41,454 bases of DNA from an uncultured Hyphomicrobiales bacterium (GTDB lineage: Bacteria; Pseudomonadota; Alphaproteobacteria; Rhizobiales; Xanthobacteraceae), in NCBI GenBank assembly GCA_903878085.1, contig CAIRGJ010000010.1, forward strand, positions 1 to 41,454, read 5' to 3'. This document shows positions 1 through 39,924 of the stretch, one piece after another. The number at the start of each line of letters is the position of its first letter. Position 1 is the first letter of the stretch. The position numbers and the translations under genes are program-made. The notes under the pieces were generated by a model. That model saw only the letters and a program-made list of their open reading frames with translations, made no database searches and was not told where the DNA came from.

Positions 1-488
1 AGCTTGGCGCGGATCGCCTGCGCGAACACCGGCGCCGCGCCGTCGGTCGAAATGCCGATCACCAAAGGCGAGCGGTTCACAATCGCCCCGAACGAAAAAT
101 CGCAGAACGCCGGCTTATCGATGACGTTGACCGGAACGCCCCAGGAGCGCGCCGCTTCGGCAAATAGTGCGGCGTCCCCATCACTCTCGCACGCGCCAAC
201 TGCTATCGAAGCGCCAGCCAAATCTTCCGTCATCCAAGCGCGCTTATGCACGGCGATCTCGCCGCGCGGCGCATCGGCCGCGACCTGAAGCATCTCGTCG
301 GACACCTCGTCGGCATAAACGTCGACCCGCGCGCCGGCCGCCGACAGCAACTCCGCCTTCCAGGCCGCAGCAGGACTGCCGCCGGCCAGCACGCAACGCT
401 TGCCCTCGAGCGCCAGGAACACCGGCAGCCGCGCCAGCGGCGCCATCCTCGCAGGCTGTGCTTCAAGCGGTTTGCGCGACACGCTCAT
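1..488 (-). CDS. cysG: Sirohaem synthase, N-terminal part (cut by window edge)
   Basis: This is the N-terminal 162 codons of a CysG-type protein. The first domain is a precorrin-2 dehydrogenase/sirohydrochlorin ferrochelatase that supplies sirohaem, the cofactor of the nitrite reductase encoded upstream. The visible protein starts MSVSRKPLEAQ, has a Rossmann-like loop (LAGGSPAAAWKAELL, near residues 30-45), then the DFSFGAIVNRSPL and GISTDGAAPVFAQAIR motifs typical of CysG/Met8. The reading frame is open to base 1, so the methyltransferase domain, if present, lies outside the window. The ATG at 488 overlaps the end of nasA by 26 bases, so it is probably co-translated with the nitrate genes. 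Because the end is missing, it cannot be told from the sequence whether it is full CysG or a single-domain CysG-N/Met8 protein. Confidence 0.88.
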   Translation of the reverse strand, partial: MSVSRKPLEAQPARMAPLARLPVFLALEGKRCVLAGGSPAAAWKAELLSAAGARVDVYADEVSDEMLQVAADAPRGEIAVHKRAWMTEDLAGASIAVGACESDGDAALFAEAARSWGVPVNVIDKPAFCDFSFGAIVNRSPLVIGISTDGAAPVFAQAIRAK

Positions 489-2106: not shown

Positions 2107-3182
2107 GTGTGCGGCGAGTTGATTGGCCAGCCCCCCACCTCCCGTCCGCCCATCGCGTTGGGCTGGCCGGTCAGCGAGAACGGACCCATGCCGGGCTTGC
2201 CGATGCGGCCGGTCGCCAGATGGCAGTTGATGATGCTGGTGACTTTGTCGGTACCCTGTGCCGACTGGTTCACGCCTTGCGAAAAACAGGTGACCACCTT
2301 CGCTGTCGTGCGGAACAGGTCGAAGAACTGCGCGACATCGGCTTCGGCAAGGCCGGTTGCATTGGCGGTGGCGGCGGCACTCGGCGCGATCTCTCGCGTC
2401 CGCACCAGCGCCTCGGTCAAACCCACCGTATGCGCGTCAATATATTGGTAGTCCAGCGCCAGGGTGTCGGCGAGGTGCACCAGCAGGCCGCTAAACAGCA
2501 CTGTGTCCATGCCGGGCGCGACGCTCAGGAACAGGTTGGCATCCTCGGCGGTTGCCGTGCGGCGCGGATCGATCACCACGATCTTGGCGCCGCGCGTCCG
2601 CTTGTTGGCGACCATGCGTTGATACAAAACCGGATGACACCAGGCGGCGTTGGAACCGACCAGCACGATGAGATCGGCGCAGTCGAGATCGGCGTAGGCG
2701 CCAGGCACAATGTCGGCGCCGAAGGCGCGGCGGTGACCGGCCACCGTCGAGGACATGCACAGCCGCGAGTTGGTGTCGACATTCGAAGAGCCAATGAAGC
2801 CCTTCATCAGCTTGTTGGCGACGTAATAATCCTCAGTTAACAACTGGCCGGAAAGATAAAACGCCACCGAGTCGGGGCCGTGCTTCGCGATGGTATCGGC
2901 AAAGCCGTCCGCTGCCTTGCCGAGCGCGCTGTCCCACGACGTCTGCGTCAGTGTGCCGTTGGACTGGCGCAGCGTCGGGTACAGCAGCCGGGTATCTAGG
3001 CCCAGCGTCTCGCCGAGCGCCGAACCCTTCGAGCATAGGCGTCCAAAATTGGCCGGGTGCGCGGGATCGCCGGCGATGACGGCGCCGCCACGACCATCGG
3101 GCTTGGCCAGCACGCCACAACCGACGCCGCAATAGGGGCATGCCGTGCGGACCGCCGGCGGATGCTGCGCGGGCGCGTTCAT
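2103..3182 (-). CDS. nasA: Assimilatory nitrate reductase, N-terminal part (truncated by frameshift)
   Basis: This frame encodes the N-terminal 359 residues of NasA. It has the [4Fe-4S] motif (Cys15, Cys18, Cys22 and Cys50 in TACPYCGVGC and GRLCSKG), the GSSNVDTNSRLCMSS active-site region with the cysteine expected to ligate Mo, and the NCHLATGRIGKPGMGPFSLTGQ motif. It then leaves the family frame at a six-G run (2131-2136) and stops at 2103. One extra G would restore GGREVGGLANQLAAHMNFG and give a 906-residue protein, the usual NasA length. The ATG at 3182 overlaps the TGA of the flavoprotein gene by one base (TGATG). An in-frame TTG at 3185 is a less likely start. The break is either a true mutation or a homopolymer read error. 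Confidence 0.9.
   Translation of the reverse strand: MNAPAQHPPAVRTACPYCGVGCGVLAKPDGRGGAVIAGDPAHPANFGRLCSKGSALGETLGLDTRLLYPTLRQSNGTLTQTSWDSALGKAADGFADTIAKHGPDSVAFYLSGQLLTEDYYVANKLMKGFIGSSNVDTNSRLCMSSTVAGHRRAFGADIVPGAYADLDCADLIVLVGSNAAWCHPVLYQRMVANKRTRGAKIVVIDPRRTATAEDANLFLSVAPGMDTVLFSGLLVHLADTLALDYQYIDAHTVGLTEALVRTREIAPSAAATANATGLAEADVAQFFDLFRTTAKVVTCFSQGVNQSAQGTDKVTSIINCHLATGRIGKPGMGPFSLTGQPNAMGGREVGGWPINSPHT
2131..2136 (-). other. Frameshift site in nasA (G6 run on coding strand)
   Basis: The coding strand reads GAGGTGGGGGGCTGGCC. In the present frame this gives EVGGWP and soon a TGA. With seven Gs it would read EVGGLAN, the NasA family sequence, and continue in frame into the downstream half. 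No other break is seen in either half, so the lesion is confined to this run. Confidence 0.85.
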
Positions 3183-4813
3183 CAATACACGTCCTGCTGA
3201 TAGCGGCCGCTCTTCTTCAGATCGCCCACAAAAGCCGCTGCGTCGGCGGCGATGCGCACGCCGTGCTGGGCAACAATATCGACCAGCGCCAGTTCGACAT
3301 CCTTGGCCATGCGCTTGGCATCGCCACAGACATAAATGTGCGCGCCGTCAGCGAGCCAAGCCCAGAGATCGCGGCCGACTTCGCGCATGCGATCCTGCAC
3401 ATAGATCTTCTCGCCGCTGTCGCGCGACCAGGCCAGCGTCAGTCGGGTGAGATGGCCGCAGTCTTTCATCGCCTTGAATTCGTCTTCATAGAAGAAGTCG
3501 CAGTTGGAGCGCTGATGGCCGAAGAACAGCCAGTTGCGCCCCGGCGCCTTGACGGCCTGCCGCTCCTGCAGGAAGGCGCGGAACGGCGCCACCCCGGTGC
3601 CGGGGCCCACCATGATGACCGGCACGTTCGGATCGGCCGGCAGCGCGAAGGCATGCGCTTTCTGTACGTAGACCTTGAGCTGAGCGCCGGGTTCGATGCG
3701 TTCGGCGAGCATGGTCGAGCAGACGCCAAACCGGTCGCGGCCAGCGATGCGATAACGCACAGTATCGACGGTGAGCGCCACACAGCCGGGCTTGGTCTTC
3801 GGCGACGACGAGATCGAATAAAGCCGCGGCTGCAACGAATCGAGCGATTCTATGAAGGCTTCAGGATCGGGCCGGATGCCGGGAAATTTCTCGATGGCGC
3901 TCAAGACGTCCATTGTCGCCGCGTCGCCATCGGGGTCCTCGCCGGTCGACAGCGCGCGCGCCTTCTTCCGGCGGTCGCCGCCGGTGATGTAGGAGAACAA
4001 CTGGAACAGCATGTCGGGCGCCGGCGACAGCGATACGCCATCGGTCAGGCATTCGCGCAACGTGCGGCCGCCGATCGGGAAATCGGCCGGCGCACCGAGC
4101 GCCCTGATCACCGCCTCAACCAGCGCCGGATCGTTCGCCGGAAACAGGCCGAAGGCATCGCCCACCGTGTAGTCGAGCCCGCATTCGGCAAGATCGAACT
4201 CGACGTGCCAGGTTTCCTTTTCGGAACCCGGCTTGTTGAGCAATTTACGCGACAGCACTTTGGCCACCGCAGGATTGTCGCGCGAGGTGCCCGGCGCGGC
4301 CTGAATCACCGGTGCCGGCGCCGCGGCCGGCTCAGCCGCCGCCTGCGGCGCGGTAACGGCGGGCGCGCTCTTGAGCTCTTCGTGCAACTTCTTGACCATG
4401 CGGGCGGTTTCCTTGCCGCCCGGCACGCACAGGTTCAGCCGCTCTTCTGTTCCCGACACGATCGCGCCGGAGTAATTCTTGCAGTCATAGCCGCACTGGC
4501 CGCAGTCCTGCTGCGCCATCGCCGCCATCATCTTCCAGCGCAGCGGCTTGTCCGCGGCGAGATTCATGCGCTCGGCGAGCGGTAAGGTCTGATCGTGCCA
4601 CGGAGCGCCACCGTCATCTTCTTCATCAGTCTTGACGCTGGCCGCCCCCGACATCAGGGCCACGCCCTGATCGCTCGACAGCGGCGTGATGCCCGAGCCG
4701 TCGAGTGCAATCAGCCCCGCAAAGAAACCATTGAGCCACGCGCGCTGATCCTCGGAGAACGGCGCAGTCTCAGGCACCAGCGACGGGATCGGCGGCGGCA
4801 TGTTCTGCGTCAT
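3182..4813 (-). CDS. CysJ-like flavoprotein reductase with N-terminal Fe-S motif
   Basis: This 543-residue protein is an NADPH-dependent flavoprotein of the sulfite reductase alpha (CysJ) type, probably passing electrons to NirA. The C-terminal half has the FAD-binding RLYSISSSP motif, the NADPH-binding GPGTGVAPFRAFLQER motif and the terminal RYQQDVY typical of ferredoxin-NADP reductase-like modules. The FMN-binding flavodoxin domain of true CysJ is absent. In its place, residues 104-131 hold CGQCGYDC and LNLCVPGG, the four-cysteine pattern of the small FeS domain seen in Rnf and corrinoid proteins (Cys104, 107, 111, 129). A low-complexity Ala/Pro linker follows. It overlaps nirA (ATGA) and nasA (TGATG). 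Electron delivery to nitrite or nitrate reductase is inferred from position; it is often annotated only as sulfite reductase subunit alpha. Confidence 0.87.
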   Translation of the reverse strand: MTQNMPPPIPSLVPETAPFSEDQRAWLNGFFAGLIALDGSGITPLSSDQGVALMSGAASVKTDEEDDGGAPWHDQTLPLAERMNLAADKPLRWKMMAAMAQQDCGQCGYDCKNYSGAIVSGTEERLNLCVPGGKETARMVKKLHEELKSAPAVTAPQAAAEPAAAPAPVIQAAPGTSRDNPAVAKVLSRKLLNKPGSEKETWHVEFDLAECGLDYTVGDAFGLFPANDPALVEAVIRALGAPADFPIGGRTLRECLTDGVSLSPAPDMLFQLFSYITGGDRRKKARALSTGEDPDGDAATMDVLSAIEKFPGIRPDPEAFIESLDSLQPRLYSISSSPKTKPGCVALTVDTVRYRIAGRDRFGVCSTMLAERIEPGAQLKVYVQKAHAFALPADPNVPVIMVGPGTGVAPFRAFLQERQAVKAPGRNWLFFGHQRSNCDFFYEDEFKAMKDCGHLTRLTLAWSRDSGEKIYVQDRMREVGRDLWAWLADGAHIYVCGDAKRMAKDVELALVDIVAQHGVRIAADAAAFVGDLKKSGRYQQDVY

Positions 4814-14697: not shown

Positions 14698-17067
14698 TCA
14701 GCTGGCTTCGGCATGCTGCGCTTTGGCGTCCTGGATCGCCTGCCAAACCTTATAGGGCGTCGCCGGCATGCGGATGTCCTGCACGCCGTAGCGGCTCAGG
14801 GCATCGACGATAGCGCCGATGATGACGGCAGGCGCGGCTGTCGTGCCGCCCTCGCCGCCGGCCTTGATGCCGAGCGGGTTGGTCGGCGACAACACTTCGA
14901 TGATCTCGGTGGTGAAGGACGGCAACAAGTTGGAGCGCGGCATGCCGTAGTCCATCAGCGAACCGCAGAGCGGTTGTCCGGAATCGGGGTCGACGACGCA
15001 TTGCTCCCACAACGCCTGGCCAATGCCCTGGGCGATGGCGCCATGCGTCTGACCGTGGACGATGAGCGGATTGATGCAGCGGCCGACATCGTCAACAGAA
15101 GCGTAGCGCGTCAGCTTCAGGCCGCCGGTATCAGGATCGACTTCAATCTCACAGATCGCGCAGCCGTTCGGAAACACCGGATCGTGCATTTCATTGTCGG
15201 TGACGACGGCAAGGCCCGTTTTCAGATCGTCGGGCAGCTCGTGCTTGCTCAGTTCCTGCGCCAGTTCGATAAAATCGAAAGTACGATTGGTGCCGCGCGT
15301 GGAGAACCGGCCATCGTTGAAATCGATCTGGTCGGGTTGCGCGCCGAGAGCAATGGCCGCCAAGCGCTTGCCTTTGGCGATCATCTCGACCGCGGCCAGG
15401 GAAAACACCGTCGCCGCATGGCGCATGGAGCGGCCGGAATGCGTACCGCCGCCGGCTTTCACCACGTCGGTATCGCCCATGATGATGCGAACACTCTCCG
15501 CCGGCACACACAGCAAGTCGGCGACGACTTGCGCGAAGCTGGTCTGGTGGCCCTGGCCTGCCGGCTGGGTGCCGATGATGACATCGACAATGCCGTCAGG
15601 CCGCACGGTAATGCGGGCTTGTTCCTTGGGCGCACCGATGGAGGATTCGACGTAATTGGCGAGGCCGCGCCCGAGCAACCTGCCGCGTTTTGCAGCCTCG
15701 CGCTTGCGGGCAGCAAAGCTGTCCCAGTCGGCGATCCGCATCGCGAGATCCATCGCATCTTCGTAACGGCCGCTGTCATAGAGCATGCCGACCGCGTTGC
15801 GGTAGGGCATCGCCTTGGGCTTCACCAGATTGCGACGGCGCAGCGAAATGCGATCAATGCCGAGTTTGGTCGCCGCGATGTCGATCAAGCGTTCGACGGC
15901 AAACGTCATCTCCGGACGACCCGAACTGCGATAAGCCTGCGTCGGCACCGTGTTGGTATAGACCGACATCGCGCGCAACGTCGCCACCGGGATCGCGTAG
16001 CTGCCGGTGATCAAACCGGCGCCCTTGCTCAGCGGCGACAGCGACACGCAGCGCGCGCCGGCATTGCTGATGTTGGTCGCGCGCAACGCCAGGAAGCGGC
16101 CTTTGGCGTCCAGCGCCAGTTCGAATTTCGCGACGAGGTCACGGCCCTGGTAATCGCTGAGGAAGCATTCCGAGCGGGTCGAGGTGCATTTGACCGGGCG
16201 CTTGAGCTTGCCCGCCGCCCACAAGATCAGTCCGTATTCGACATAGACACGATTGCGCGTGCCGAAATTGCCGCCGACATCGAGCGACAGCACACGCAAT
16301 GTCTCCGGCTCGATGCCGAGCACGTCGGCGATTTCCCGCTTCTGCCGCACGGCACCGCCGCCGCCGGCATGGAGCGTGTAGCGCCCCGTCGCCGTGTCGT
16401 AATTGGCGACGCAAGCGCGGGGCTCCATCGGCACGCCGGTGACGCGATCGATATGAAAGTCCATCGCAACAGTATGCGCGGCCTCCACGAAAGCTTTATC
16501 TGTGCCGGCTTTGTCACCGAAATGAGTATCGACCAAAATGTTGGTGGGCAGTTCGTCCCAAACCGCTGGCGCGTCAGGCCTCATGGCGTCTTCGGATTGG
16601 CTGACGAAGGGCAGCACGTCATAGACGACTTCGAGCGCTTCGGCGCCATCCATCGCCTGGGCGCGGGTTTCCGCGACCACCATCGCGACCGGCTCGCCGA
16701 CGTGACGCGCTTTGTCGGCGGGCAGCAGCATATGCGGTCCCTGGAAAATGACGCTGCCGCCGGGTCCGGCCAGCTTCATGTCGTCGCGCGTTTTCGGTAG
16801 CGGATCGTGCTGAATGGGCTTGAGGCCGTCGGCTTGGCAATCGGCGCCGGTATAGACGCCAAGCACGCCGGGCATTGCCAACACCGGACCCTTGTCGATG
16901 CTAACGATACGCGCATGCGGGTGCGGCGAGCGCACCATGGCCGCATAGGTCTGCCCCGGATAGCTGAAATCGTCGCTATATTGACCCTTGCCGGTGATCA
17001 GCCGCGCATCTTCGGTGCGCGGCATCGGTTGGCCAATGTAACGAAAAGTGGATTCGGGAAGCGTCAT
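14698..17067 (-). CDS. Xanthine dehydrogenase-family molybdopterin-binding large subunit
   Basis: This 789-residue protein is the Mo-cofactor subunit of the xanthine oxidase/CO dehydrogenase family, which hydroxylates aldehydes, purines or aromatic heterocycles with water. It contains IGQPMPRTEDARLITGKGQY at the start, a GGNFGTRN loop, and the GEGG segment with the probable catalytic Glu739. The active-site loop is AYRSSGRPE, close to the form II AYRGAGRPE pattern, not the AYXCSFR loop of true form I CO dehydrogenase, so CO oxidation is unlikely. No FAD medium subunit or 2Fe-2S small subunit gene is adjacent, so it is an orphan here. It lies between two Bug-type receptors, suggesting their ligand or a breakdown product as substrate. 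Confidence 0.9.
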   Translation of the reverse strand: MTLPESTFRYIGQPMPRTEDARLITGKGQYSDDFSYPGQTYAAMVRSPHPHARIVSIDKGPVLAMPGVLGVYTGADCQADGLKPIQHDPLPKTRDDMKLAGPGGSVIFQGPHMLLPADKARHVGEPVAMVVAETRAQAMDGAEALEVVYDVLPFVSQSEDAMRPDAPAVWDELPTNILVDTHFGDKAGTDKAFVEAAHTVAMDFHIDRVTGVPMEPRACVANYDTATGRYTLHAGGGGAVRQKREIADVLGIEPETLRVLSLDVGGNFGTRNRVYVEYGLILWAAGKLKRPVKCTSTRSECFLSDYQGRDLVAKFELALDAKGRFLALRATNISNAGARCVSLSPLSKGAGLITGSYAIPVATLRAMSVYTNTVPTQAYRSSGRPEMTFAVERLIDIAATKLGIDRISLRRRNLVKPKAMPYRNAVGMLYDSGRYEDAMDLAMRIADWDSFAARKREAAKRGRLLGRGLANYVESSIGAPKEQARITVRPDGIVDVIIGTQPAGQGHQTSFAQVVADLLCVPAESVRIIMGDTDVVKAGGGTHSGRSMRHAATVFSLAAVEMIAKGKRLAAIALGAQPDQIDFNDGRFSTRGTNRTFDFIELAQELSKHELPDDLKTGLAVVTDNEMHDPVFPNGCAICEIEVDPDTGGLKLTRYASVDDVGRCINPLIVHGQTHGAIAQGIGQALWEQCVVDPDSGQPLCGSLMDYGMPRSNLLPSFTTEIIEVLSPTNPLGIKAGGEGGTTAAPAVIIGAIVDALSRYGVQDIRMPATPYKVWQAIQDAKAQHAEAS

Positions 17068-18284: not shown

Positions 18285-19919
18285 ATGACCTCACCCGCTG
18301 CCCAAGATGCGCCTTCCGACTTGCAGGAACACCTGGCCCGGCTGACCGCACGAGGCCTGGTCACGCGGATCGATCGGCCGATCAATAAAGACACCGAATT
18401 GCATCCGCTGGCGCGTTGGCAGTTCCAAGGCGGATTGCGCGACGAAGAGCGTAGAGCGTTCCTGTTCACCAACGTGGTTTGTGCAGGTGGCGAGAGCTAC
18501 GACATTCCCGTTCTGGTGGGCGGCCTCGCCGCCTCTCCCGAAATCTATGCCACGGGCCTGGGCGTTCCGGTGGAAGATATCGGCCGCGTTTGGGTCAAGG
18601 CCATGACCGAGCCGATCGCGCCGGTGCTGGTGGAAACGGCGCCGTGCCAGGAAGTCGTCATGACCGGCGCGGATATCCAGAAATGCGGCCTCGCCAGCCT
18701 GCCGGTGCCGATTTCGACGCCCGGCTTCGATTCAGCGCCTTATCTCACGGCCACACTGTGCGTGACGAAGGATCCGGACAACAACATCCAGAACATGGGC
18801 ACCTATCGCGCGGCACTCAAAGCCAATGACCGCCTCGGCGTGCGCATGGCGTCGCGTCTGAGCGGCGCCGGCGGCTATCTGCATTGGGAAAAATACAAGA
18901 AGCTGAAGCAGCCGATGCCCTGCGCGATCGTCGTCGGTTGTGCGCCGGCGGTTCTGTTCACCGGGCCGCAGAAACTTCCGATTGACGTCGATGAAATGGC
19001 GGTCGCCGGCGGTCTGATGGGCAAACCGGTGCGGACCGTGCGCTGCAAGACCGTCGACCTGATCGTGCCGGCCGACGCGGAGATCGTCATAGAAGGCTTA
19101 ATCGACACCGATCTGCTGGAACCGGAAGGTCCGTTCGGCGAAAGCCACGGCCACGTCGCGCTGGAAGACTTCAACATGTCGATGCGCGTGACGGCGATCA
19201 CGCGCAAGAAGAAGCCGGTGTTCGTGTCGATCATCAGCCAGGTGACGCCAAGCGAGTCGTCGGTAATGAAACGCGTCGCTTATGAGCCGATGTTCCTCGA
19301 ACATCTGCGCCAAGCGCTCGGCATCCGCGGCGTCAAGCGCGTGGTGATGCATGAGCCTTTGTCTAACCTGCGCAAGATCATCTTCGTGCAGTTCGAGCGC
19401 GGCACGCCGCGCACCGAGATATGGCGCGGCATGCAGGGCGCGGCGACATTGCAGGCGCAATGCGGCAAGCTGATTATTGCCGTGTCCGAGGATATCGCGC
19501 CGGAGAATGCCGATGCCGTGTTCTGGTCGTTGGCCTACCGCTCCAATTTCATGGAAGACATCTTGATGGTGCCCTATCGCTCCAGCGGCCACGGGCCGAA
19601 GTCCGGCCGCGCCGCGATGGAAGGCACGCTGATGATCGACGCGACGCTCAAGAGCGATATGCCGCCGCTGGCTCTGCCGGCGGAGGAATACATGACGAAG
19701 GCAAAGGGCATTTGGGAAGAGCTTGGGCTGCCGCGCATCGTGCCGCAGTCGCCGTGGCATGGCTACCAGTTGGGTGACTGGGAAGAAGAATACACGACGT
19801 TTGCCGACGCCGCGGTTGTAGGCGACTGGCGCAAGAGCGGCGAGAACACCTTCGCCCGGCGGCACGGCAATCTGAAGCCGGAAACGCCCGTCCGCAAGGT
19901 CACGCCCAAGAAGCCTTGA
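18285..19919 (+). CDS. UbiD-family prenylated-FMN (de)carboxylase
   Basis: This 544-residue enzyme belongs to the UbiD family, reversible decarboxylases of aromatic and alpha,beta-unsaturated acids that use prenylated FMN. The family catalytic triad can be placed at Arg175 (NMGTYR), Glu281 and Glu286 (in EPEGPFGESHGH), with the expected five-residue spacing between the two glutamates. The GPFGESHGH variant differs from the usual GPFGE(F/H)TGY, which may mark a different substrate pocket. No UbiX flavin prenyltransferase is encoded in the window, so the cofactor must come from elsewhere. It starts the rightward group with an aldo/keto reductase and two CocE-like hydrolases. A hydroxybenzoate-type substrate is possible but not shown. 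Confidence 0.9.
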   Translation: MTSPAAQDAPSDLQEHLARLTARGLVTRIDRPINKDTELHPLARWQFQGGLRDEERRAFLFTNVVCAGGESYDIPVLVGGLAASPEIYATGLGVPVEDIGRVWVKAMTEPIAPVLVETAPCQEVVMTGADIQKCGLASLPVPISTPGFDSAPYLTATLCVTKDPDNNIQNMGTYRAALKANDRLGVRMASRLSGAGGYLHWEKYKKLKQPMPCAIVVGCAPAVLFTGPQKLPIDVDEMAVAGGLMGKPVRTVRCKTVDLIVPADAEIVIEGLIDTDLLEPEGPFGESHGHVALEDFNMSMRVTAITRKKKPVFVSIISQVTPSESSVMKRVAYEPMFLEHLRQALGIRGVKRVVMHEPLSNLRKIIFVQFERGTPRTEIWRGMQGAATLQAQCGKLIIAVSEDIAPENADAVFWSLAYRSNFMEDILMVPYRSSGHGPKSGRAAMEGTLMIDATLKSDMPPLALPAEEYMTKAKGIWEELGLPRIVPQSPWHGYQLGDWEEEYTTFADAAVVGDWRKSGENTFARRHGNLKPETPVRKVTPKKP

Positions 19920-30823: not shown

Positions 30824-31306
30824 TCAGAATTCGCGATGGAAGATGAGACGGTCAAACGAATATACGCCGCCGCCGTGCAGAAGAAAGTAAAGCGCCGCAA
30901 CCGTCCACATCAGCGTATATTCAAGCCCGAGTTGGTTCCAAAAATATTTTCCGACGCGCCAACGCTCGATATTGGTTACCACCAGGAAAAGAACGACCGG
31001 CACGGCCGCGAGGCGCGTAAACAGCCCGAGTGCAAGCAGCGGCCCGCAGACGAGTTGCGTTAAGGAAATCGCCAGCGCCCAGACTTTGCCCGGGCGATAG
31101 CCTTGCTTGTCCAGGTAATCGGCGAGCATCCGTAAATTTTGCAGAGGCTGTCCGGTGTTGGGGAAAAATCCGAACGTCATGCGCAACCCATGCGGCACCA
31201 GCGCCAGCCCGACGCACAAGCGCAAAAGCACTTCCACCCAAGGGTCCAGGGCTTGGTAGAAGCCGCCGAGTTGCGGAAACATCAGAGGGATCGACGGTTC
31301 GTTCAT
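30824..31306 (-). CDS. DoxX-family membrane protein
   Basis: This 160-residue integral membrane protein has four likely helices. The pattern is that of DoxX/DoxD: LLRLCVGLALVPHGLRMTFG at the first helix, a loop with ADYLDKQGYRPG, then ALAISLTQLVCGPLLALGL and VPVVLFLVVTN. Some DoxX relatives are quinone-linked (thiosulfate:quinone oxidoreductase small subunit) and others are of unknown function. It is the last gene of the leftward molybdoenzyme group, but 136 bases and a repeat element separate it from the Fe-S subunit gene. It could offer a membrane or quinone contact for that enzyme, though this is only inference. Confidence 0.85.
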   Translation of the reverse strand: MNEPSIPLMFPQLGGFYQALDPWVEVLLRLCVGLALVPHGLRMTFGFFPNTGQPLQNLRMLADYLDKQGYRPGKVWALAISLTQLVCGPLLALGLFTRLAAVPVVLFLVVTNIERWRVGKYFWNQLGLEYTLMWTVAALYFLLHGGGVYSFDRLIFHREF

Positions 31307-31442: not shown

Positions 31443-32279
31443 CTATAATCGGATTTCGCCGAAATTGATGCTGACGCCAAGCTTGGCTTCGACGGCCTTC
31501 TTGGCGTGCGCGGCGCAGGTGATTTCGACGACATAGTCGCCAGAATTCTCGTCCAGCCGATCGAATTTGAAGTCACCGTAATTGTCGGTCGCGGTTTCCG
31601 CGACGACGGCGCCATCCTTGAGCAGACGGACCACCGCGCCCTCGACGCAATCGACAACGCCATCGGTCGCCGCCGACACCGAGCCGCCGATGAAGCATTT
31701 CGAATAGCGCCACAAATTTTTGTAATAGACGCGTGGTTTGGTGCCGAGATCAGGCTTTAAGACCTCGAGTCCTTGCTCGCGCGCGATCTTCGCCATGTCC
31801 TCGTCTTCGACGCACACCGCGCGCATAGCGGCAGTGGGGCACGACTGCTGCCCGCGGGTCTGTTTCCAACCTTGGTCAATTAAATGGGCGTCAAAGGTCC
31901 AGGCCTGCGGAATTTTCAGTTCTTCGTTCCACCATATGCTGCCGTAGGGACAGGCTTCCACAATATCCTTCCGCCCCTTTGCCTTGACTGGATCAATCAG
32001 CACGATTCCGTCAGCACGTTTTGTCACCGCGCCGCCGCCTTTGGCGACGCAGGGCGCATTGTCGCAATGGTTACACATCGTCGGAACGTAGGCGATGTCG
32101 ACCATCGGCACCTGCCCGCGTTCCTTCTGCAGGATGTTGATCCACTTGTGGCCGTGCTTCGGCATCGGCGCCGAATAGCCCGGCCAGTCGTTGTCGACGT
32201 ACTCATCCATGGCCGCTAGCGTGCACAGATTGCAGTTCGTGCATTCGGCGACGTCGATGACCAAATTCCATTTATTCAT
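31443..32279 (-). CDS. Fe-S subunit of transhydroxylase-like molybdoenzyme, with C-terminal transthyretin-like domain
   Basis: This 278-residue protein matches the small subunit of pyrogallol-phloroglucinol transhydroxylase (TthS/BthS type). It has ferredoxin cysteines at 13, 16, 19 (CTNCNLC), 69, 72, 77 (CNHCDNAPC), 110 (CPYGSIWW) and 147 (SCPTAAM), enough for about three [4Fe-4S] clusters. Residues 198-278 form a beta-rich module (GGSVSAATDGVVDCVEGA, DNYGDFKFDRLD) like the transthyretin/CnaB domain that ends the Pelobacter small subunit. Ordinary DMSO-reductase-type FeS subunits lack this domain. There is no Tat signal, so it is cytoplasmic. The partner large subunit lies two genes upstream, separated by two cupins. 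Resorcinol hydroxylase RehS is a related alternative. Confidence 0.87.
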   Translation of the reverse strand: MNKWNLVIDVAECTNCNLCTLAAMDEYVDNDWPGYSAPMPKHGHKWINILQKERGQVPMVDIAYVPTMCNHCDNAPCVAKGGGAVTKRADGIVLIDPVKAKGRKDIVEACPYGSIWWNEELKIPQAWTFDAHLIDQGWKQTRGQQSCPTAAMRAVCVEDEDMAKIAREQGLEVLKPDLGTKPRVYYKNLWRYSKCFIGGSVSAATDGVVDCVEGAVVRLLKDGAVVAETATDNYGDFKFDRLDENSGDYVVEITCAAHAKKAVEAKLGVSINFGEIRL

Positions 32280-32372: not shown

Positions 32373-32717
32373 TCACTTCGGTATCGACGGCACCACGAGA
32401 TGGAACAGCTTGAGTGACGCCCCGTTCGCCGCCTGGATGGTCGCGGTCTCGGAGGGCCCGAGATAGATACCCGCACCCTTTTCGACGGCGTAATCCTTGT
32501 CGTTAAGCCGGATGCTGCCCTTGCCGTCCATGAGATAGATGAGCTGGTGCTTGGCTATGGCATCCGGCTTGAACGTCTCCGCCGATTTGAGCCAGCGCAG
32601 CGAGCCATGGACGTTCCGCGCCCCGCAAAGCGCCGCGTTCAGCACGTCGGTGGCCTCACCTTGGCCGGCCGAGGCCGATTTAGGAAGTTTGTTGGTATCA
32701 ATGAATGTAAGCGACAT
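32373..32717 (-). CDS. Small cupin-domain protein (degenerate metal site)
   Basis: This 114-residue single-domain cupin has a motif 1 reduced to KHQLIYLMDGKGSI (His57) and a motif 2 with GPSETATIQA. It lacks the HxH...E triad that normally binds metal, so it may be a non-metal, regulatory or binding cupin. The ATG at 32717 has AAGGA nine bases upstream. It lies 30 bases after a metal-competent cupin and 93 bases before the Fe-S subunit gene. A stand-alone role in substrate handling for the molybdoenzyme is plausible but unproved. No close named family is recognised. Confidence 0.78.
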   Translation of the reverse strand: MSLTFIDTNKLPKSASAGQGEATDVLNAALCGARNVHGSLRWLKSAETFKPDAIAKHQLIYLMDGKGSIRLNDKDYAVEKGAGIYLGPSETATIQAANGASLKLFHLVVPSIPK

Positions 32718-32747: not shown

Positions 32748-33161
32748 TCAGGTCTGGATCCAGGCGCGGCCGTCCTTGCGCTCCCAGCGCAGGTCGTCAT
32801 CGGTGCCTTCGAGGATCGTCGTCTTGAAGCGATTAGGCGCTTGCCACTCGAAATAGAACAGCGGCTCAGTGGCGCGCAGACGGTGCTTCTCTTCGGCCGG
32901 GATGAAGATCATGTCGCCGGGCCCGACCGGCCGTATGCCCTCGTCCGATTCCACCGTCGCCTTGCCGTCGATGATGAAATAGAAGTGCTCGCAATTCTTG
33001 TGCAGATGCAGCGGCGATGCGGCACCCTGCTTGTAGTGCATGACGCCGGCCAGCATATCGTCGATATTGGCGAGTTCCTGATTGACGAAGAAAATGCGCT
33101 CGCGCGCACCTTTGGCGTCAATCAGCGATGGCAGATCGCCCTCCTTGAAGATGTAAGCCAT
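32748..33161 (-). CDS. Small cupin-domain protein (intact metal site)
   Basis: This 137-residue cupin has a full metal-binding motif: His52, His54 and Glu58 (PLHLHKNCEHFYFIIDG) and His93 in motif 2 (IPAEEKHRL). The ATG at 33161 is preceded by a near-perfect AAGGAGG at seven bases, so it is chosen over an upstream in-frame codon (33203) that would add 14 residues with no clear site. It sits between the large and small subunit genes of the transhydroxylase-like enzyme. It may act as an isomerase, hydrolase or dioxygenase on the same substrate, but cupin functions are too varied to choose. Confidence 0.85.
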   Translation of the reverse strand: MAYIFKEGDLPSLIDAKGARERIFFVNQELANIDDMLAGVMHYKQGAASPLHLHKNCEHFYFIIDGKATVESDEGIRPVGPGDMIFIPAEEKHRLRATEPLFYFEWQAPNRFKTTILEGTDDDLRWERKDGRAWIQT

Positions 33162-33243
33162 TAGGTATCCTCCTTCTGTTGCGGCCGCAGCGCCGTCGAT
33201 CACGGCCGCCGACCGATAGGGTTCACGTCAATCCTCACTTCGC

Positions 33244-36200
33244 CTAAAGCGGCGCTGCCGCAGGTGAGCGCTTCACTTGTGCGTCCTTTTCCGTTTGGGC
33301 GAACGCCTCCGAGATGTAGTCGGTATTGCCGTCCCATGGCTCGATCTCGACTAGCCCCTGCGCACCAGCAAGCGCATGTGTGGACTTGGTCTGCGAGCGG
33401 TGCGGCATCAACAGATTAATGACACCGCCGCGATCGACAGACCGGCCGGGCTCACCCATCGGCTCGTACAGCGCTGAGGACTCGTAACTGCTGGCGACGC
33501 CGGGCGACAGCCGCTCGGTCAGTACCGCCGCGCAGATCACTGCGCCACGGTCGTTGTAGACTTTGACCAGATCGTGCTGCTTGATGCCGCGTGCCGCGGC
33601 ATCCTGTGAATTCATACGCACGACCCAGTAGTACCAATCCTTCACTTTCACCCGGTGGTCCGGGATGTTGAGCAGGAAGCTGTCCTTGCCGTCGCCCTGA
33701 GTGTGGAAGCTGTACTTGCTGTGCGGGGTGAGCAGTTGCAGCGGATATTTCCGGAACAGCTCGCCCGACTGCGGACCCTCCCACGACGGCACGTATTCGA
33801 CCACCGGCGGCCGTTCAGGATCGTTCAAACGCTTGAGACTATTGCACTCGAACTCGAGCTTGCCCGATTGGGTCTGCAGGCCTTTGAGGAACTCCACCGA
33901 ATAGTCGGACGGTAGCGGACTTGGCTCGGGAACGTCCTTCTTGCGACCTTCCCAGAACCAGCGGAAAGACACCGGCGCGCGCAGATGCTCCTTCTCCGAC
34001 GGCACCACGAAGTAGCCGCGGCGAATGAACTTCTTCCACGACATCACCTTGGGCATGTCGGACGCATCGAATAGGCGCTTGACCCAATCGAGCTCGTTCA
34101 CGCCTTCGGAGAAGTAGTTGGCGAGCCCCAGCCGTTTGGAGATCTCATTGAAAATCCAATAGTCGGATTTTGATTCCCCGAGCGGCTCGATAGCCGGCGC
34201 CTGGAAGATGATGACGCGATGGTTGAGCTGCTGCTGGCCGTGATGGCCGTAACCGCCGAGCCCGGCCCATTCGCTGATGTCCACCCGCTCAAAATTGGTG
34301 CAGGCAGGCAGGATGATGTCGGCAAATTTGGTGTCACCCTCGAACCAGATCGCCTGGCTGACGATGAACTCGAGATTCGGCGACTGGAACATCTTCACGT
34401 GGCGGTTCGTGTTGTTCATGGTCGGGATTAGCGAACCGCCGTACTTGAACATCATCCGCACCGGCGCGTGACCGGCCGCCGGGTAACTGAACTTGGCGAA
34501 CTGCGTCTCGATCGATTTGCCGTTCCAGGGGTAGCCGCCGTCGGCTTTTCCTTCAAGAATCGCCTCGGGCAAGGAGAGGCGCGGAATCTTTTGCTGTGGT
34601 GTGTTAATCGTCGGCAGTTGTGGCATGCGCTGATAGAGCTCAACGGCCATCGCGGTCTTCTCGATATCGCCGGACATGCCCCCATCGGCGTAGCCCGGGA
34701 AATAGAAGTTGAGATCGACCGGGGCACCCCATTGTAGATTGCCCATGTTGATGCCGGGCTTGCCCAGTCCCTGCATTGCGATCAGGCACACCATGGTGCG
34801 CGCCCATTGGATGCCGGTCTGATTGCGGCAGGCGCCGCCGTGGCCATTGCCCCAGCCACCGCAGCCGAGATAGGTACGTTTGGCAGCCCATTCGCGCGCC
34901 AGCGCGCGCACGTCCTTGGCTGGCACGCCGGTTTCCTGCTCCTGCCATTCGGGCGTTTTGGGCACGCCGTCGCCCTCGCCCATGACATAGGCCTTCCAGG
35001 CGTCGAAGCCGACCGTGTGCGTGGCCACGTATGCCTTGTCGTAGAGCCCTTCCTTGATCCAAACGTAAGCGATCGCCAGGGCGAGCGCCGGCGAGGTCGT
35101 CGGCTTCGGGCAGAGCCATTTGCCCGGCAAGAATTGGGCAGACGAGTTGTAATGGGGATCGATGTGCACAACCTTGATGCCGAGCTTCTTCAGCCACTGG
35201 CGGCGCACGGTGCCTTCCTGCGCGCCATAAGAGCCGCTGGTGGTTTCGGGATCGGCCGCCCAGAACACAACCATCTCGCAGTTTTGCAGCAGATCCTCGA
35301 CCGTGCCGTATGTTTCACACTGGCCGACGCGCATCGTGTAGCCCCAGTGGTGCGCGGCGCCCCAGTACCAGCCTTCCCAGCTGTCCGGATTATGGTGGAC
35401 GGGCGTGTGACCGACGGCGTTACTGAAGCGATATAATGCACTGAGGTAATAACCAATATGGCCCCAGGTATGATGAGAACCGTGTGAGACGGTCATGGCG
35501 CCCGGCCCGTGATCGTGCCGTACGCGTTTAATCTCGCTCGCGACTATGTCGAGCGCTTCATCCCAACTGATCGGCACATAGCCCGACTTGCCACGGTTCG
35601 CTTCGTTGCGCTCGCCCTTTGGATCAAAGTCGACGCGCTTCATCGGGTGGAGCAAGCGGTCTGGCGAATAAATCATCGACCGGCTGTTCTGTCCGTGCGG
35701 AGCGAGCGTCGTCCTGCGCGGCGGCGTGAAGTCAAGGCCGCGCGCTTTTATCGTCCACGGCTGCGGATCAGTTTCGTCAAAGTCGATCGGCGTCGTGCGG
35801 ATGATCTTGCCGTCTTTGACATAAACGAAAAGCGGGCCGCCGTTCGCCATGTTGCAATAGCGCATGGTGCCGTCGGCCATGCGGATGCCGAATTTCCAGC
35901 CGGCGGTCTGCATCATCATGAGGGTCTGCGCGAACCAGTTGGTGAGGTCCTCAGGGCCGTCGACCCCAAGCGTAAAATCCTTCTGGGCATTGATCTGGTT
36001 GAGCCAGTTGATCGGCGGTGTCAGCAGCGAGGCGCCGATCGTGGCGTTCTTGAACGACAACGTAATGTCCGGCTTCGCATGCACGCCCCGGCCAGAACTG
36101 ACCTTGCCATCGCGAATTGAAATCCAGCGGCCGATCCCCTCGTCGCGAGCCGTGATCTGCGCAACAAGACTGCGCTGCTTGAGTCGGGCGGCAAAGGCCG

Positions 36201-36276
36201 GGTGCCGGCGCGCGACGAACTTAAGCACTAGGGGCAAGCCAAAAAGGATGATTGAGAACTTCAACCGCGAAAACAT
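33244..36276 (-). CDS. Transhydroxylase-like molybdopterin oxidoreductase with N-terminal SCP2-like domain
   Basis: This 1010-residue protein is a DMSO-reductase-family enzyme of the pyrogallol-phloroglucinol transhydroxylase (TthL) and resorcinol hydroxylase type. From about residue 146 ([15 protein letters not shown]) it follows that family, and like TthL it lacks the N-terminal [4Fe-4S] cysteines. The SHH motif (His268), the Asp298-Ser299 pair (HNPDSWEGW; the Ser ligates Mo in the Pelobacter enzyme) and FPGYADGG are kept. Residues 1-130 are additional: a hydrophobic start ([16 protein letters not shown]) and an SCP2-like module ([22 protein letters not shown]). SCP2 domains bind lipids. 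The ATG at 36276 has GGGAGG at eight bases; an upstream TTG is rejected. The Fe-S subunit is two genes on. Substrate unknown. Confidence 0.87.
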
Positions 36277-36331
36277 CGTGACGGCCTCCCGCCGCAATCG
36301 ATATACCGCTCAAGCGGGCGCGCCCCGCTAT

Positions 36332-36436: not shown

Positions 36437-37372
36437 CTATCGCCGCGATCGCCCGGCGCTGCCCTTGGGAGAACCTATCCCGGCCGCCATGCGCTGAATT
36501 TCGGCGAGAAAGGCGAGGCAGACTGCAGACAATTCGTGCTTGGCGCGCGAGATGACGGCGACCTGCCACGGCTGCATCGGCGAATCGAGTTGTAAAAGCG
36601 CAATCGAGGGCGGCGTGCGGCCGCCGAAAAAGATCTGAGAGGGCACAAGCGTGACGTAGTCTCCATTCGCAACGAGTGCGAGTGCGCAGGCGAACGAGGT
36701 GCATTCAATGGTACTTTTCGGCAGAGCGAGGTTGTTGGAGGCAAAGGTCTGCTCGAAAACGTCGAGACCAGTATGACTGCGACGGTAGATGATCCAATCG
36801 AGTTCGAGCAAGTCCGCGAGCTTAAGCCTACGCGCGTTGATCAAGGGGTGATCGGCGCGAACCGCCGGCACCAAATGATCCTTGACCAAGCTCAAATAGC
36901 TCAGCGTGTCGTCGTGCGGCCGGGCGGGCACAAGACTGATCGAGAAATCGACATCGCCCGTGCGGATCGCCGGCAGAATATCGGGGTAGACATCTTCCGA
37001 AATGCGAAAGCTGACCCGTGGACGCGCCCGCTGGAAAGCGACGACCGCGCGGGGTAATAGCCCCATGGCAACCGTCGGTGAGACGCTCACGCGAATTTCG
37101 CCAACCTGAGCGCCATGGACCGTTTGCACGTCGTTGCGTGCGTGGCGCAGCTCCGCTTCAATGACCTTGGCGTGGGTCAGCAGCGCCTTACCCGCCGCGG
37201 TCGGCGTGACCCCCTGAACGCCACGATGCAACATTTCGGCGCCGAGTTCGTCCTCTAATTGCTGCAAACTCTTGCTGACCGAGGATTGCGATAGATTTAG
37301 GTTTCTGGCCGCCTGACGGAAAGTGCCAGCCTCCACGACCGCGATAAAATTCCGAAGTTGAATGAGCTTCAT
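36437..37372 (-). CDS. LysR-family transcriptional regulator
   Basis: This 311-residue protein has an N-terminal winged helix-turn-helix (residues 1-60; FRQAARNLNLSQSSVSKSLQQLEDELG) and a substrate-binding domain (about 90-295; GEIRVSVSPTVAMGLLP, VDFSISLVPARPHDD). The pattern is close to the aromatic-catabolism branch (GbpR/AbgR-like) of the family. It reads in the same direction as, and directly precedes, the transhydroxylase-like operon, which is the obvious target. The spacer after it holds several dyads. Upstream, a perfect FNR box and a TATAGT -10 suggest it is itself induced at low oxygen. The co-inducer may be the enzyme's substrate. Confidence 0.93.
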   Translation of the reverse strand: MKLIQLRNFIAVVEAGTFRQAARNLNLSQSSVSKSLQQLEDELGAEMLHRGVQGVTPTAAGKALLTHAKVIEAELRHARNDVQTVHGAQVGEIRVSVSPTVAMGLLPRAVVAFQRARPRVSFRISEDVYPDILPAIRTGDVDFSISLVPARPHDDTLSYLSLVKDHLVPAVRADHPLINARRLKLADLLELDWIIYRRSHTGLDVFEQTFASNNLALPKSTIECTSFACALALVANGDYVTLVPSQIFFGGRTPPSIALLQLDSPMQPWQVAVISRAKHELSAVCLAFLAEIQRMAAGIGSPKGSAGRSRR

Positions 37373-37764: not shown

Positions 37765-39924
37765 TTACTCCGCTTCCACCCGGGCAACCCGACACAACAG
37801 CGCGCGCAACTGATAGGTCCCCATGGCCGGATCGTAGGGCGGCTGATTGTCGGTGAGCAGATTGACGTTGGATTTCCATACGCCGTACTCCGGCGCGGGT
37901 TCCTCGGGAAACCACCAGCCGTGCTGAGCGGCAATCACGCGCGGATCAATGCCCTCGGTGAGCTTGGCGCGCTGTTTGATTCGACCGCGCCGGGTTTCAA
38001 TCCACATCCAGTCACCGTTCTTGATGCCGTGGTGACGGGCGGTGTCGGGATGGATTTCAACCACCGGATACCGGTATGCCTTGCGCAAATTTTCGATTTG
38101 CCGATGTTCGGAATTGAAAAAGTTCGGGATGCGTGCACCCGTGGTCAGCACGAGTGGAAAATCGCGGGCGACATCGGGACGGGCGATCGGACTTTCCGGC
38201 GGTTCTTCGTAATAGGGCAGCGGTGCGTAGCCCATCTCCTCGAAACGCGTCGAGTAGAGTTCGATTTTGCCGGTAGGCGTCTTGAACCCGTGGTCCTCAT
38301 ACTTGCGATAGCGGAATGGAACTTTTATCCATCCTTTCTGCTTTAATTCGTCGAAGCTGACATCGAGACCGCCGGCCTTAAGCTGCGCATTGAGCACATC
38401 CTCCACCGCCTCGGTGCCGACCGGTAGCTTCATGCGGCGCGCGAGTTCGACGAACATCTCTTCGTCCGACTTGCACTCGCCGATGCGCACCGCTTGCTGA
38501 TTTGCTAGTACGACGTTAGCGGCGACAGTGGGCAGCCCGGCCAACTGATTGATCTCGGGCCAGGATGCTGCCGGCAGGACAATGTCTGCGAGCTCCGCCG
38601 TCGGCGTCATAAACAAGTCGGCGCAGACCATGAAGTCGAGCTTCATCAGCGACTCATAGACCAGCGCAGAATTGGCCATCGTCGTCAGCGTGTTGTTTCC
38701 GAAGACAAGAAACGCCTTTACCGGATACGGCTTTCCCTCGCGCATTGCCTGCAGCAGGGTTGGAATGTGAGCAGCCGGCAAATCGGCGCCTTCGCCGGCG
38801 AGCAGTTTGAAACGGTCCGCACCAAGCCGCTTGGCATTCGCTTCGGGGGTGAGGTTCTCGATCAGACTCGGGAAACGGCCGAGGCCATGCATCCCGAACA
38901 CCCAGCCGCCCGGAACATCGATATTGCCGGTGAGTGCCGGTAACATTGAGATGGCGCGCACGGTCTGGATGCATTTTGGTGTGTGTTCGATGGCGCAGCC
39001 CCAATCCAGCATGGCCGGTTTGGTGCGGGCGAACAGGCGTGCGGCAGCGCGAATCTTGTCAGCGGCTACCCAGGTAATCGGCTCGGCCCATTCCGGCGTG
39101 AATTTCTGCACATGTGCGGAGAGTTCGGCGAAGCCGTGCGTCCATTGCGTGACGAATGGCTCGTCATAGAGCTTCTCGCCGATAATGACGTTAAGAAAAC
39201 TCAACGCTAGGGCATCATCCGTTCCAGGACGGAGCTGAAGCCACACGTCTGCGCGGCGCGCGAGTTCGGTCGCGCGTGGATCGACAACAATGATTTTAGG
39301 GTTCGTATCGAGCGCCTCGCGCACGTTGAAGCGGGTTTCGCCGTCGGGGCCGGAATTGAGCGGATTGTGGCCCCAGAACAGCATACATGCGGGCGGCGTT
39401 CCGCCGATGAAATCCGAGACGGGAAAGTCGCCAAAAGTGAGATTGCAGGTGTTGACTCGCGGATGAAAGCATTGAGCAAAGCCCGGCTCGCACCAATTCG
39501 GCGTTCCGAGCGCATGACCGAAACGTGAGACCCAGCGGATGTGGTGGCGTCCGGTGCCGGTACCGAGCGCGATCGCCTCGGGGCCGAATTCCTCGCGGAT
39601 CGCGAGAACGCGTTTAGAAATCTCGTCGAGCGCTTCGTCCCAGGTGATGCGCTCCCATTTTCCGGATCCGCGCGGGCCGATGCGCCGCCGCGGATATTGC
39701 AGGCGATCTGGATGATTGACGATGTGGGCTGTGACCGTCCCAATCGGGCACAGCCGGCCATGGCTGAGCGGTGACTCAGCATCACCTTCGACTTTGATGA
39801 GAACGCCGTCGCGCACATGCAGCAGTGTGCCACATCCACCATGGCAAGAGCGGCAAACACTCTTGAGGATGACTGTGGACTGGCCGGCGCCGCCACCTTT
39901 CGCTAAATTTTCCTGGAGCGTCAT
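37765..39924 (-). CDS. DMSO-reductase-family molybdo/tungsto-enzyme, acetylene-hydratase-like pattern
   Basis: This 719-residue protein has an N-terminal [4Fe-4S] site (Cys24, 27, 31 and 59: SVCRSCHGGC, GRLCPIG), a catalytic region (TPNWCEPGFAQCFHPR, with Cys152 the likeliest Mo/W ligand), and the C-terminal dinucleotide-binding domain (GKIELYSTRFEEMGY, PLPYYEEPPES, RRGRIKQRAKL). Length and motifs such as PYPVKAFLVFGNN and FMTPTAELADIVLPA recall acetylene hydratase and its relatives. Two residues argue for a different reaction: His28 replaces the catalytic Asp after the second cysteine in the hydratase, and Ile61 replaces the Lys usually following the fourth cysteine. No Tat signal or redox partner gene is adjacent. 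Substrate unknown. Confidence 0.83.
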   Translation of the reverse strand: MTLQENLAKGGGAGQSTVILKSVCRSCHGGCGTLLHVRDGVLIKVEGDAESPLSHGRLCPIGTVTAHIVNHPDRLQYPRRRIGPRGSGKWERITWDEALDEISKRVLAIREEFGPEAIALGTGTGRHHIRWVSRFGHALGTPNWCEPGFAQCFHPRVNTCNLTFGDFPVSDFIGGTPPACMLFWGHNPLNSGPDGETRFNVREALDTNPKIIVVDPRATELARRADVWLQLRPGTDDALALSFLNVIIGEKLYDEPFVTQWTHGFAELSAHVQKFTPEWAEPITWVAADKIRAAARLFARTKPAMLDWGCAIEHTPKCIQTVRAISMLPALTGNIDVPGGWVFGMHGLGRFPSLIENLTPEANAKRLGADRFKLLAGEGADLPAAHIPTLLQAMREGKPYPVKAFLVFGNNTLTTMANSALVYESLMKLDFMVCADLFMTPTAELADIVLPAASWPEINQLAGLPTVAANVVLANQQAVRIGECKSDEEMFVELARRMKLPVGTEAVEDVLNAQLKAGGLDVSFDELKQKGWIKVPFRYRKYEDHGFKTPTGKIELYSTRFEEMGYAPLPYYEEPPESPIARPDVARDFPLVLTTGARIPNFFNSEHRQIENLRKAYRYPVVEIHPDTARHHGIKNGDWMWIETRRGRIKQRAKLTEGIDPRVIAAQHGWWFPEEPAPEYGVWKSNVNLLTDNQPPYDPAMGTYQLRALLCRVARVEAE

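Follow-up and report, generated by a model that had tools for sequence, protein, structure and literature searches.

A predicted SCP2-fold domain on TthL-type molybdenum hydroxylases, and the loss of an iron-sulfur cluster from their partner subunit

The gene considered here encodes the large subunit of a molybdenum hydroxylase of the TthL type, TthL being the large subunit of pyrogallol-phloroglucinol transhydroxylase. It comes from an uncultured Hyphomicrobiales bacterium of the Xanthobacteraceae (assembly GCA_903878085.1), where positions 1-41,454 of contig CAIRGJ010000010.1 were studied; this whole stretch of 41,454 nucleotides is called the window. The gene (33244..36276, minus strand) is an intact open reading frame (ORF) for 1010 amino acids, starting with ATG at 36276 and stopping at 33244, with an in-frame TTG upstream at 36297. 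Its product joins an N-terminal domain, predicted to have the SCP2 fold, to a TthL-like catalytic core. This fusion is the usual architecture of a large branch of bacterial enzymes. What is new here, as judged from sequence comparison, is that gain of the domain is paired, across a large and little-annotated family, with loss of an iron-sulfur (Fe-S) cluster from the partner small subunit.

The interest of the system lies in this pairing, rather than in the fusion alone. It defines the domain architecture of enzymes in many Proteobacteria, and ties that architecture to an unexpected loss from the partner. It also makes testable an open question: how those members of the transhydroxylase family that are oxidative get rid of their electrons and work at the membrane.

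The catalytic core is homologous to TthL, and its active-site residues are conserved. Residues 138-984 (33325..35865, minus strand) align end to end with residues 5-870 of TthL (4v4c_A) at E=1.6e-289 and 53% identity. An earlier interpretation of this DNA from its letters alone (the sequence-only reading) had recognized the likeness to TthL but had placed its start at residue 146; about residue 138 is where it begins. The motifs are SHH (267-269), HNPDSWEGW (295-303), and FPGYADGG (526-533), the active-site motifs, the last among them, having been correctly picked out in that reading. By alignment columns, H268, D298, S299, and Y529 correspond to TthL residues H144, D174, S175, and Y404, which we take to be molybdenum-site or active-site residues, the serine being the ligand of molybdenum. 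The equivalents of H144, S175, and Y404 are kept in all 90 fused cores of the tree described below, and that of D174 in 88 of the 90. Pfam recognizes PF21423 (E=9.1e-28), PF00384 Molybdopterin (2.4e-30), and PF01568 Molydop_binding (1.1e-15) in the large subunit. It does not detect its N-terminal Fe4S4 domain there, just as expected for a subunit said to lack the N-terminal Fe-S site, though it does find that domain in a second molybdoenzyme near the fused gene (37765-39924). The NCBIfam models nearest to this second enzyme, neither of which reaches its cut-off, are those for formate dehydrogenase alpha and thiosulfate reductase.

Ahead of the core lies the additional domain, residues 1-137 (35866..36276, minus strand). 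The sequence-only reading had called it an SCP2 domain behind a hydrophobic helix. A Pfam search of residues 1-145, even at E=1, produced no match, and did not bear this out. Among 32 aligned relatives, six gave weak matches to PF02036 (SCP2), the best at E=0.0022; the window protein is not one of these six, and 16 other Pfam families each match the domains of one or two of the same 32. Searching the window's own genome with PF02036 matched one other gene, not the SCP2-fused gene. When the PDB was searched with a profile built from the domain alignment, no SCP2 protein came up, and the three matches at E 0.32-1.3 were non-SCP2. When the domain profile was compared by hhalign with E. coli UbiT, the probability was 0.4; when run by hmmsearch against SCP2-bearing ORFs, its best E was 0.11, with UbiT and UbiJ both unmatched.

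The fold gives a different picture. Weak as the sequence signal is, the predicted structure of the domain matches the SCP2 fold far beyond chance, and in this respect the claim of an SCP2 domain stands. An AlphaFold2 model of residues 1-150, built from 30 sequences, reached a mean predicted local distance difference test score (pLDDT) of 82.1 and a predicted template modelling score (pTM) of 0.70. In order, it contains two helices, four strands, two helices, one strand, and one helix. A Foldseek comparison with the PDB placed solely SCP2-domain proteins and alkylsulfatases (YjcS entries included) at ranks 1-35. The best match was UbiJ-SCP2 (E=8.9e-6), followed by SdsA1 (9.4e-6), AF1534 (3.2e-5), and the yeast and mammalian SCP2 proteins (2e-4 to 8e-4); template modelling scores (TM-scores) by query length for the SCP2 and alkylsulfatase matches were 0.42-0.60. 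The first fold of any other kind appeared at E=0.011.

A helix at residues 2-24 (36205-36273, minus strand) is indeed present at the start of the modelled domain. Its best 19-residue hydropathy, 1.66 in the window protein and 0.24-1.79 over 30 family members, is for most of them more in keeping with a peripheral or amphipathic helix than with an unambiguous transmembrane segment.

The idea that residues 1-145 simply extend the core was rejected. The domain matches SCP2; it is absent from unfused relatives and from TthL, which has merely four residues ahead of the aligned core; for TthL, the sequence-only reading was thus right that the domain is missing from known transhydroxylases. Further, the secondary structure of the domain is nearly identical when it is modelled alone and within the full-length protein. 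In the full-length model (pLDDT 60.3), the domain comes out the same, and most of the core is poorly determined. Identity to the window protein is 32-89% in the domain versus 56-95% in the core over 76 relatives, these being picked from 83 loci by an aligned or readable N-terminus and being no gauge of frequency.

How common is the fusion? At least 594 relatives appeared in a first scan seeded with the window protein. Genome samples were then drawn evenly, each including its centre genome (labels beginning with G or L are ours, for genomes and loci). A TthL-like gene was found in 8 of 337 alphaproteobacterial genomes, all eight in frames of 993-1021 residues. Carriers numbered 4 of 297 genomes in the window's order and 3 of 300 in that of G399; at the family level, the sample around G398 gave 12 of 249 and that around G404 gave 18 of 98, where six of the 18 had already been known as carriers. 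In the family of G404, all five unfused places were among the 34 matches listed. An unfused protein served as query in the scans of the Alphaproteobacteria and of the G398 and G404 families. The candidates scored per genome were few (at most 2 in the Alphaproteobacteria, the window's order, and the G399 order, 3 in the G398 family, and 9 in the G404 family), which means that unfused paralogues may be missed.

The domain profile was run over 124 distinct TthL-like cores, the window uncounted. The domain was present in 118 and absent from 5, with 1 cut by the end of its contig, where 79 of the 124 came from the scan seeded with the window protein, which favours fused forms. The 124 were reduced from 165 places; near-complete cores were required, and loci in other genes or repeating the window were left out. 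A tree of 96 rows after thinning, including the window and TthL and rooted on the latter, puts all 90 fused cores in one clade (support 0.835) with TthL outside, and the five unfused cores in a separate clade (support 0.998). Because the fused sequences form one clade and the unfused another, the domain was probably acquired a single time, at the root of its clade.

The same profile found the domain in 5 of 210 Alphaproteobacteria (the window's own genome included), each time in a frame of 993-1021 residues. A set of 33 carrier genomes has it 48 times, and 43 of these copies stand in frames no shorter than 990 residues. Four of the five shorter frames (799, 299, 237, 908, and 939 residues) join domain and core; the fifth stops at a contig edge within the domain. 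Neither in the 210 Alphaproteobacteria nor in the 33 carrier genomes was the domain seen in any context other than a TthL-like core. PF21423 is too insensitive to gauge this distribution: over 398 Pseudomonadota genomes it found the window's own gene above its cut-off and one other below.

That the fusion is rare, or was born of assembly, was rejected, since it is found across many genomes, in a clade of the tree, and on complete plasmids. The sequence-only reading, which had called for just such a survey of frequency, had also taken the fusion as a pointer to a lipophilic or membrane-presented substrate rather than free pyrogallol. Because the fusion is the usual architecture of the whole clade, however, the fusion alone does not point to an unusual substrate. 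The annotated records of fused proteins that were examined name them merely "molybdopterin-dependent oxidoreductase." Among the open-licence papers listed in literature searches, none links SCP2 with a transhydroxylase, a resorcinol hydroxylase, or a molybdopterin enzyme. Two SCP2-less TthL paralogues (L111:7058-9607 and L112:6096-8603) share genomes with fused ones (G399 and G404), and these pairs offer a natural comparison.

The partner of the large subunit is a TthS-type Fe-S small subunit of 278 residues (31443..32279, minus strand), recognized by its match to 4v4c_B (E=7.9e-79) and by its cysteine patterns. Across the family, 114 distinct small subunits (of 154 places) were aligned to TthS, whose numbering is used here. 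Two sets of four cysteines, {13,16,19,149} and {68,71,76,109}, are intact in all 114. The third, {23,126,129,145}, is complete in TthS and in all five small subunits beside unfused cores; by the cross-ligation rule of ferredoxins, we take it to bind one [4Fe-4S] cluster. Of 101 small subunits that accompany fused cores, 97 have lost both C126 and C129 (of the five beside unfused cores, none has), a count that reflects few evolutionary events among related sequences, and not, of course, 97 independent cases. The two cysteines are replaced by W (once Y) and D. Among the same 101, C145 is lost in 75 and C23 in 66. Eight further small subunits, having no classed core in the same stretch, all lack the C126/C129 pair.

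In the window's small subunit, the third set reads A23, W127, D130, and G143, so that all four cysteines are lost, W127-T-F-D130 (31890..31901, minus strand) replacing C126 and C129 in the alignment to TthS. With two sets kept, this subunit departs from the three [4Fe-4S] clusters that mark the TthL family. By NarH numbering, the lost cluster is presumably the second in the relay from molybdenum outward, and its loss would break the wire.

The exceptions that keep the C126/C129 pair, L068, L079, L084, and L191, bear on the order of events. In the large-subunit tree, L068, L079, and L084 are the first to branch off within the fused clade (their own grouping has support 0.518), and the remaining 87 fused cores form a clade with support 0.979. 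Because these three branch earliest, gain of the domain probably preceded loss of the cluster. In the small-subunit tree, the pair-losers form a clade (support 0.87) with L191 as the sole exception inside it. The sister of L191 is L188, where the pair is gone; the position of L191 implies either several losses or replacement of a small subunit.

Other genes surround this pair in the window, all on the minus strand. Two small cupins lie between the large- and small-subunit genes, one of 151 residues (32748..33203, Cupin_2, E=3.5e-13) with a classical HxH cupin motif by eye, the other of 114 residues (32373..32717, AraC_binding cupin, E=3.6e-5). The pair may serve as a ring-cleaving dioxygenase or as a cupin sensor. 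Directly after the small subunit comes a DoxX-type membrane protein of 160 residues (30824..31306, DoxX, E=1.1e-13), which also matches Pfam DoxD at E=0.0009, below the cut-off. A LysR-type regulator lies upstream of the large-subunit gene (36437..37372, LysR_substrate, E=9.1e-35).

The neighbourhood was compared across 109 core-bearing loci whose flanks differ in length, the window and the loci that supplied the queries among them, with loci repeated under another identifier left out; homologues were sought by tblastn at E<=1e-15 over at least half of the query. A small-subunit homologue is near the core at 92 of the 109. The window's LysR recurs at 17 loci, SDR at 14, and TctC at 13. Homologues of the 151-residue cupin occur at 17 and of the 114-residue cupin at 13 (window included), those of a third cupin query at 12. 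Genes for E1a, E1b, and E2 are found at 11, 9, and 7 loci, respectively. FAA hydrolase (two queries) is found at 10 and 6, VOC at 8, HgmA at 5, amidohydrolase at 10, BCAA-type ABC at 10, and aldehyde dehydrogenase at 9. Acyl-CoA synthetase is near 5 cores, thiolase and ECH 3 each, and OmpW and FadL-type proteins 1 each, though tblastn may miss divergent porins. A DoxX-type homologue lies downstream at 7 of 94 loci, window included.

E1a, E1b, and E2 occur together at six of the 109 loci (L029, L031, L034, L116, L137, and L138). At L138, the E1 and E2 genes and an E3-like dehydrogenase stand immediately ahead of the fused large subunit; a fused E1 runs divergently from the core gene at L137; L136 has a malic enzyme-phosphotransacetylase (PTA). 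Three annotated plasmid neighbourhoods (<=12 kb) all contain an outer-membrane protein gene, OmpW in Burkholderia (L088) and an "outer membrane protein transport protein" in Salipiger (L089) and Ensifer (L090). All three contain VOC and FAA-hydrolase genes, and two an acyl-CoA synthetase.

What might such an enzyme do? The proposal to which we give an even chance is that these genes specify a molybdenum phenol hydroxylase with two subunits, of the same kind as TthLS and RhLS (resorcinol hydroxylase), acting on small polyphenols, whose SCP2 domain docks it to membrane, lipid, or quinone. Here, a bis-molybdopterin guanine dinucleotide (bis-MGD) molybdenum site with a serine ligand would hydroxylate a phenol ring without O2. 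The enzyme would probably be cytoplasmic, serving the catabolism of small polyphenols. The SCP2-fold domain and the amphipathic helix that leads it would be a docking module holding the soluble enzyme at the membrane or, alternatively, keeping a lipid or quinone next to it. After gain of the domain at the clade's root, one of the three clusters of the Fe-S subunit would have been lost. The electron relay through the small subunit would then be shortened or broken, implying another exit route or a redox-neutral reaction.

The cellular location, the substrate class, the docking to membrane or quinone, and the electron route are what we infer. Docking is proposed because of the predicted SCP2 fold, the biochemistry of resorcinol hydroxylase, and the adjacent DoxX-type gene. 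The DoxX-type family is related to the small subunit of thiosulfate:quinone oxidoreductase, and the DoxX-type protein is a possible quinone-side partner. Oxidation of small polyphenols in the manner of resorcinol hydroxylase is suggested because some relatives adjoin 2-oxoacid-dehydrogenase operons, ring-cleavage genes, and solute transporters.

Several points weigh against the proposal of a docked polyphenol hydroxylase. The likeness to RhL and DbhL is drawn from descriptions of these enzymes and from context, not from sequence. The tblastn search over the 109 loci found no E1 or E2 homologue in the window, and genes for malic enzyme-PTA and 2-oxoacid dehydrogenases are also common housekeeping genes. 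Loss of the cluster argues against simple export of electrons through the small subunit; the unfused sister enzymes, which keep all clusters, are not known as electron exporters either. The step in which lipid or quinone would be bound is suggested solely by the predicted fold, the domain profile matches neither UbiT nor UbiJ at the level of sequence, and the quality of the full-length model does not suffice to locate the domain with respect to the molybdenum funnel.

The outer-membrane protein genes on the three plasmids, moreover, better fit a rival view, that of the sequence-only reading, in which the SCP2 domain binds a lipophilic phenol (an alkylated or prenylated ring) and hands it over to the molybdenum site, much as UbiJ and UbiT may serve ubiquinone hydroxylases. 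The top Foldseek matches, UbiJ-SCP2 and the alkylsulfatases, act on amphipathic or prenylated compounds, UbiT and UbiJ provide a precedent in ubiquinone hydroxylation (PMC6747719), and an acyl-CoA synthetase gene accompanies the outer-membrane gene on two of the plasmids. Across the 109 loci, however, OmpW, FadL-type, and acyl-CoA synthetase genes are scarce, subject to the sensitivity of tblastn to divergent porins, and the other recurrent neighbours are binding-protein transporters and genes for catabolism of small aromatics. Further, the domain is less conserved than the core, where a site that selects substrates might be well conserved. A lipophilic substrate is possible, but rather unlikely.

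The fate of the electrons separates two other views. The SCP2 domain might itself replace the Fe-S wire, a quinone or redox lipid brought to the molybdenum subunit taking the electrons. This we hold to be unlikely; were it true, a lipid carrier built into the molybdenum hydroxylase would serve as its electron outlet, and the apparent gain of the domain before loss of the cluster would be explained. Alternatively, no electrons might leave at all. Here, the enzyme would be a redox-neutral transhydroxylase or isomerase like TthL, its SCP2-fold domain a structural or oligomerisation module, and its Fe-S subunit in decay. The loss of C126 and C129 from nearly all fused partners, with the other two sets intact in all, speaks for this, as does the absence of an NrfD/DmsC-type anchor among the 29 neighbour representatives scanned, no search having been aimed at anchors. 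But decay sits poorly with retention of the two remaining clusters in 101 of 101 partners, a sign that they still have a role. The neighbouring 2-oxoacid-dehydrogenase and ring-cleavage genes are in keeping with oxidation products, and the SCP2 fold is typically lipid-binding. We regard a redox-neutral enzyme as distinctly unlikely.

Elsewhere in the window are a UbiD-type decarboxylase (18285-19919) and a molybdenum subunit of the xanthine-dehydrogenase family (14698-17067); the window thus concentrates genes of aromatic and molybdenum metabolism. Another molybdenum oxidoreductase (463-3185) is split into overlapping ORFs (463-2106 and 2103-3185). The break falls inside the Molybdopterin domain, with profile positions 1-231 in one ORF and 234-352 in the other; a true split, a frameshift, or an error of sequencing could account for it. 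The BFD domain and a nitrite-reductase neighbour mark the enzyme as a probable assimilatory nitrate reductase.

Among known systems, TthLS of Pelobacter acidigallici (PDB 4v4c) shares with the window's enzyme the core, the molybdenum-site residues, a large subunit without an Fe-S site, and a homologous small subunit. Unlike the window protein, TthL is without an SCP2 domain, and TthS has all 12 cysteines of the three sets, where the window's small subunit has lost the four of one set. The reaction of TthL is redox-neutral. Other homologues of TthL, the resorcinol hydroxylase RhLS (Azoarcus anaerobius) and the alpha-resorcylate hydroxylase DbhLS (Thauera aromatica AR-1), belong to an oxidative hydroxyhydroquinone pathway. 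RhLS is an oxidative enzyme associated with the membrane; in the hydroxyhydroquinone pathway of A. anaerobius, membrane-associated enzymes carry out the oxidation of resorcinol, whose ring is finally converted to acetate and malate. The E1-E2-E3-like genes beside some fused relatives resemble this pathway. One source groups RhL and PgtL, the latter a transhydroxylase, as related cytoplasmic enzymes with a serine ligand (PMC10100899). Resorcinol, according to another, can be degraded via hydroxylation to hydroxyhydroquinone and then oxidative dearomatisation (PMC10470551).

The SCP2 domain has its own parallels. In the paper cited above (PMC6747719), the SCP2 domain of UbiJ is reported to bind hydrophobic ubiquinone intermediates, and UbiT to work in an O2-independent pathway. 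Both proteins are linked to ring hydroxylation, and UbiJ shares the SCP2 fold predicted for the window domain; in contrast to that domain, they are separate proteins, unfused to a molybdoenzyme, and have no detectable sequence similarity to it. The alkylsulfatases SdsA1, Pisa1, and YjcS are matched to the window domain by Foldseek over about 80-100 columns, a stretch that we take to be their C-terminal SCP2-like domain. Their catalytic core is different, and their SCP2-like domain is at the opposite end of the chain. They nevertheless provide a precedent for an SCP2 domain fused to an enzyme that acts on amphipathic substrates.

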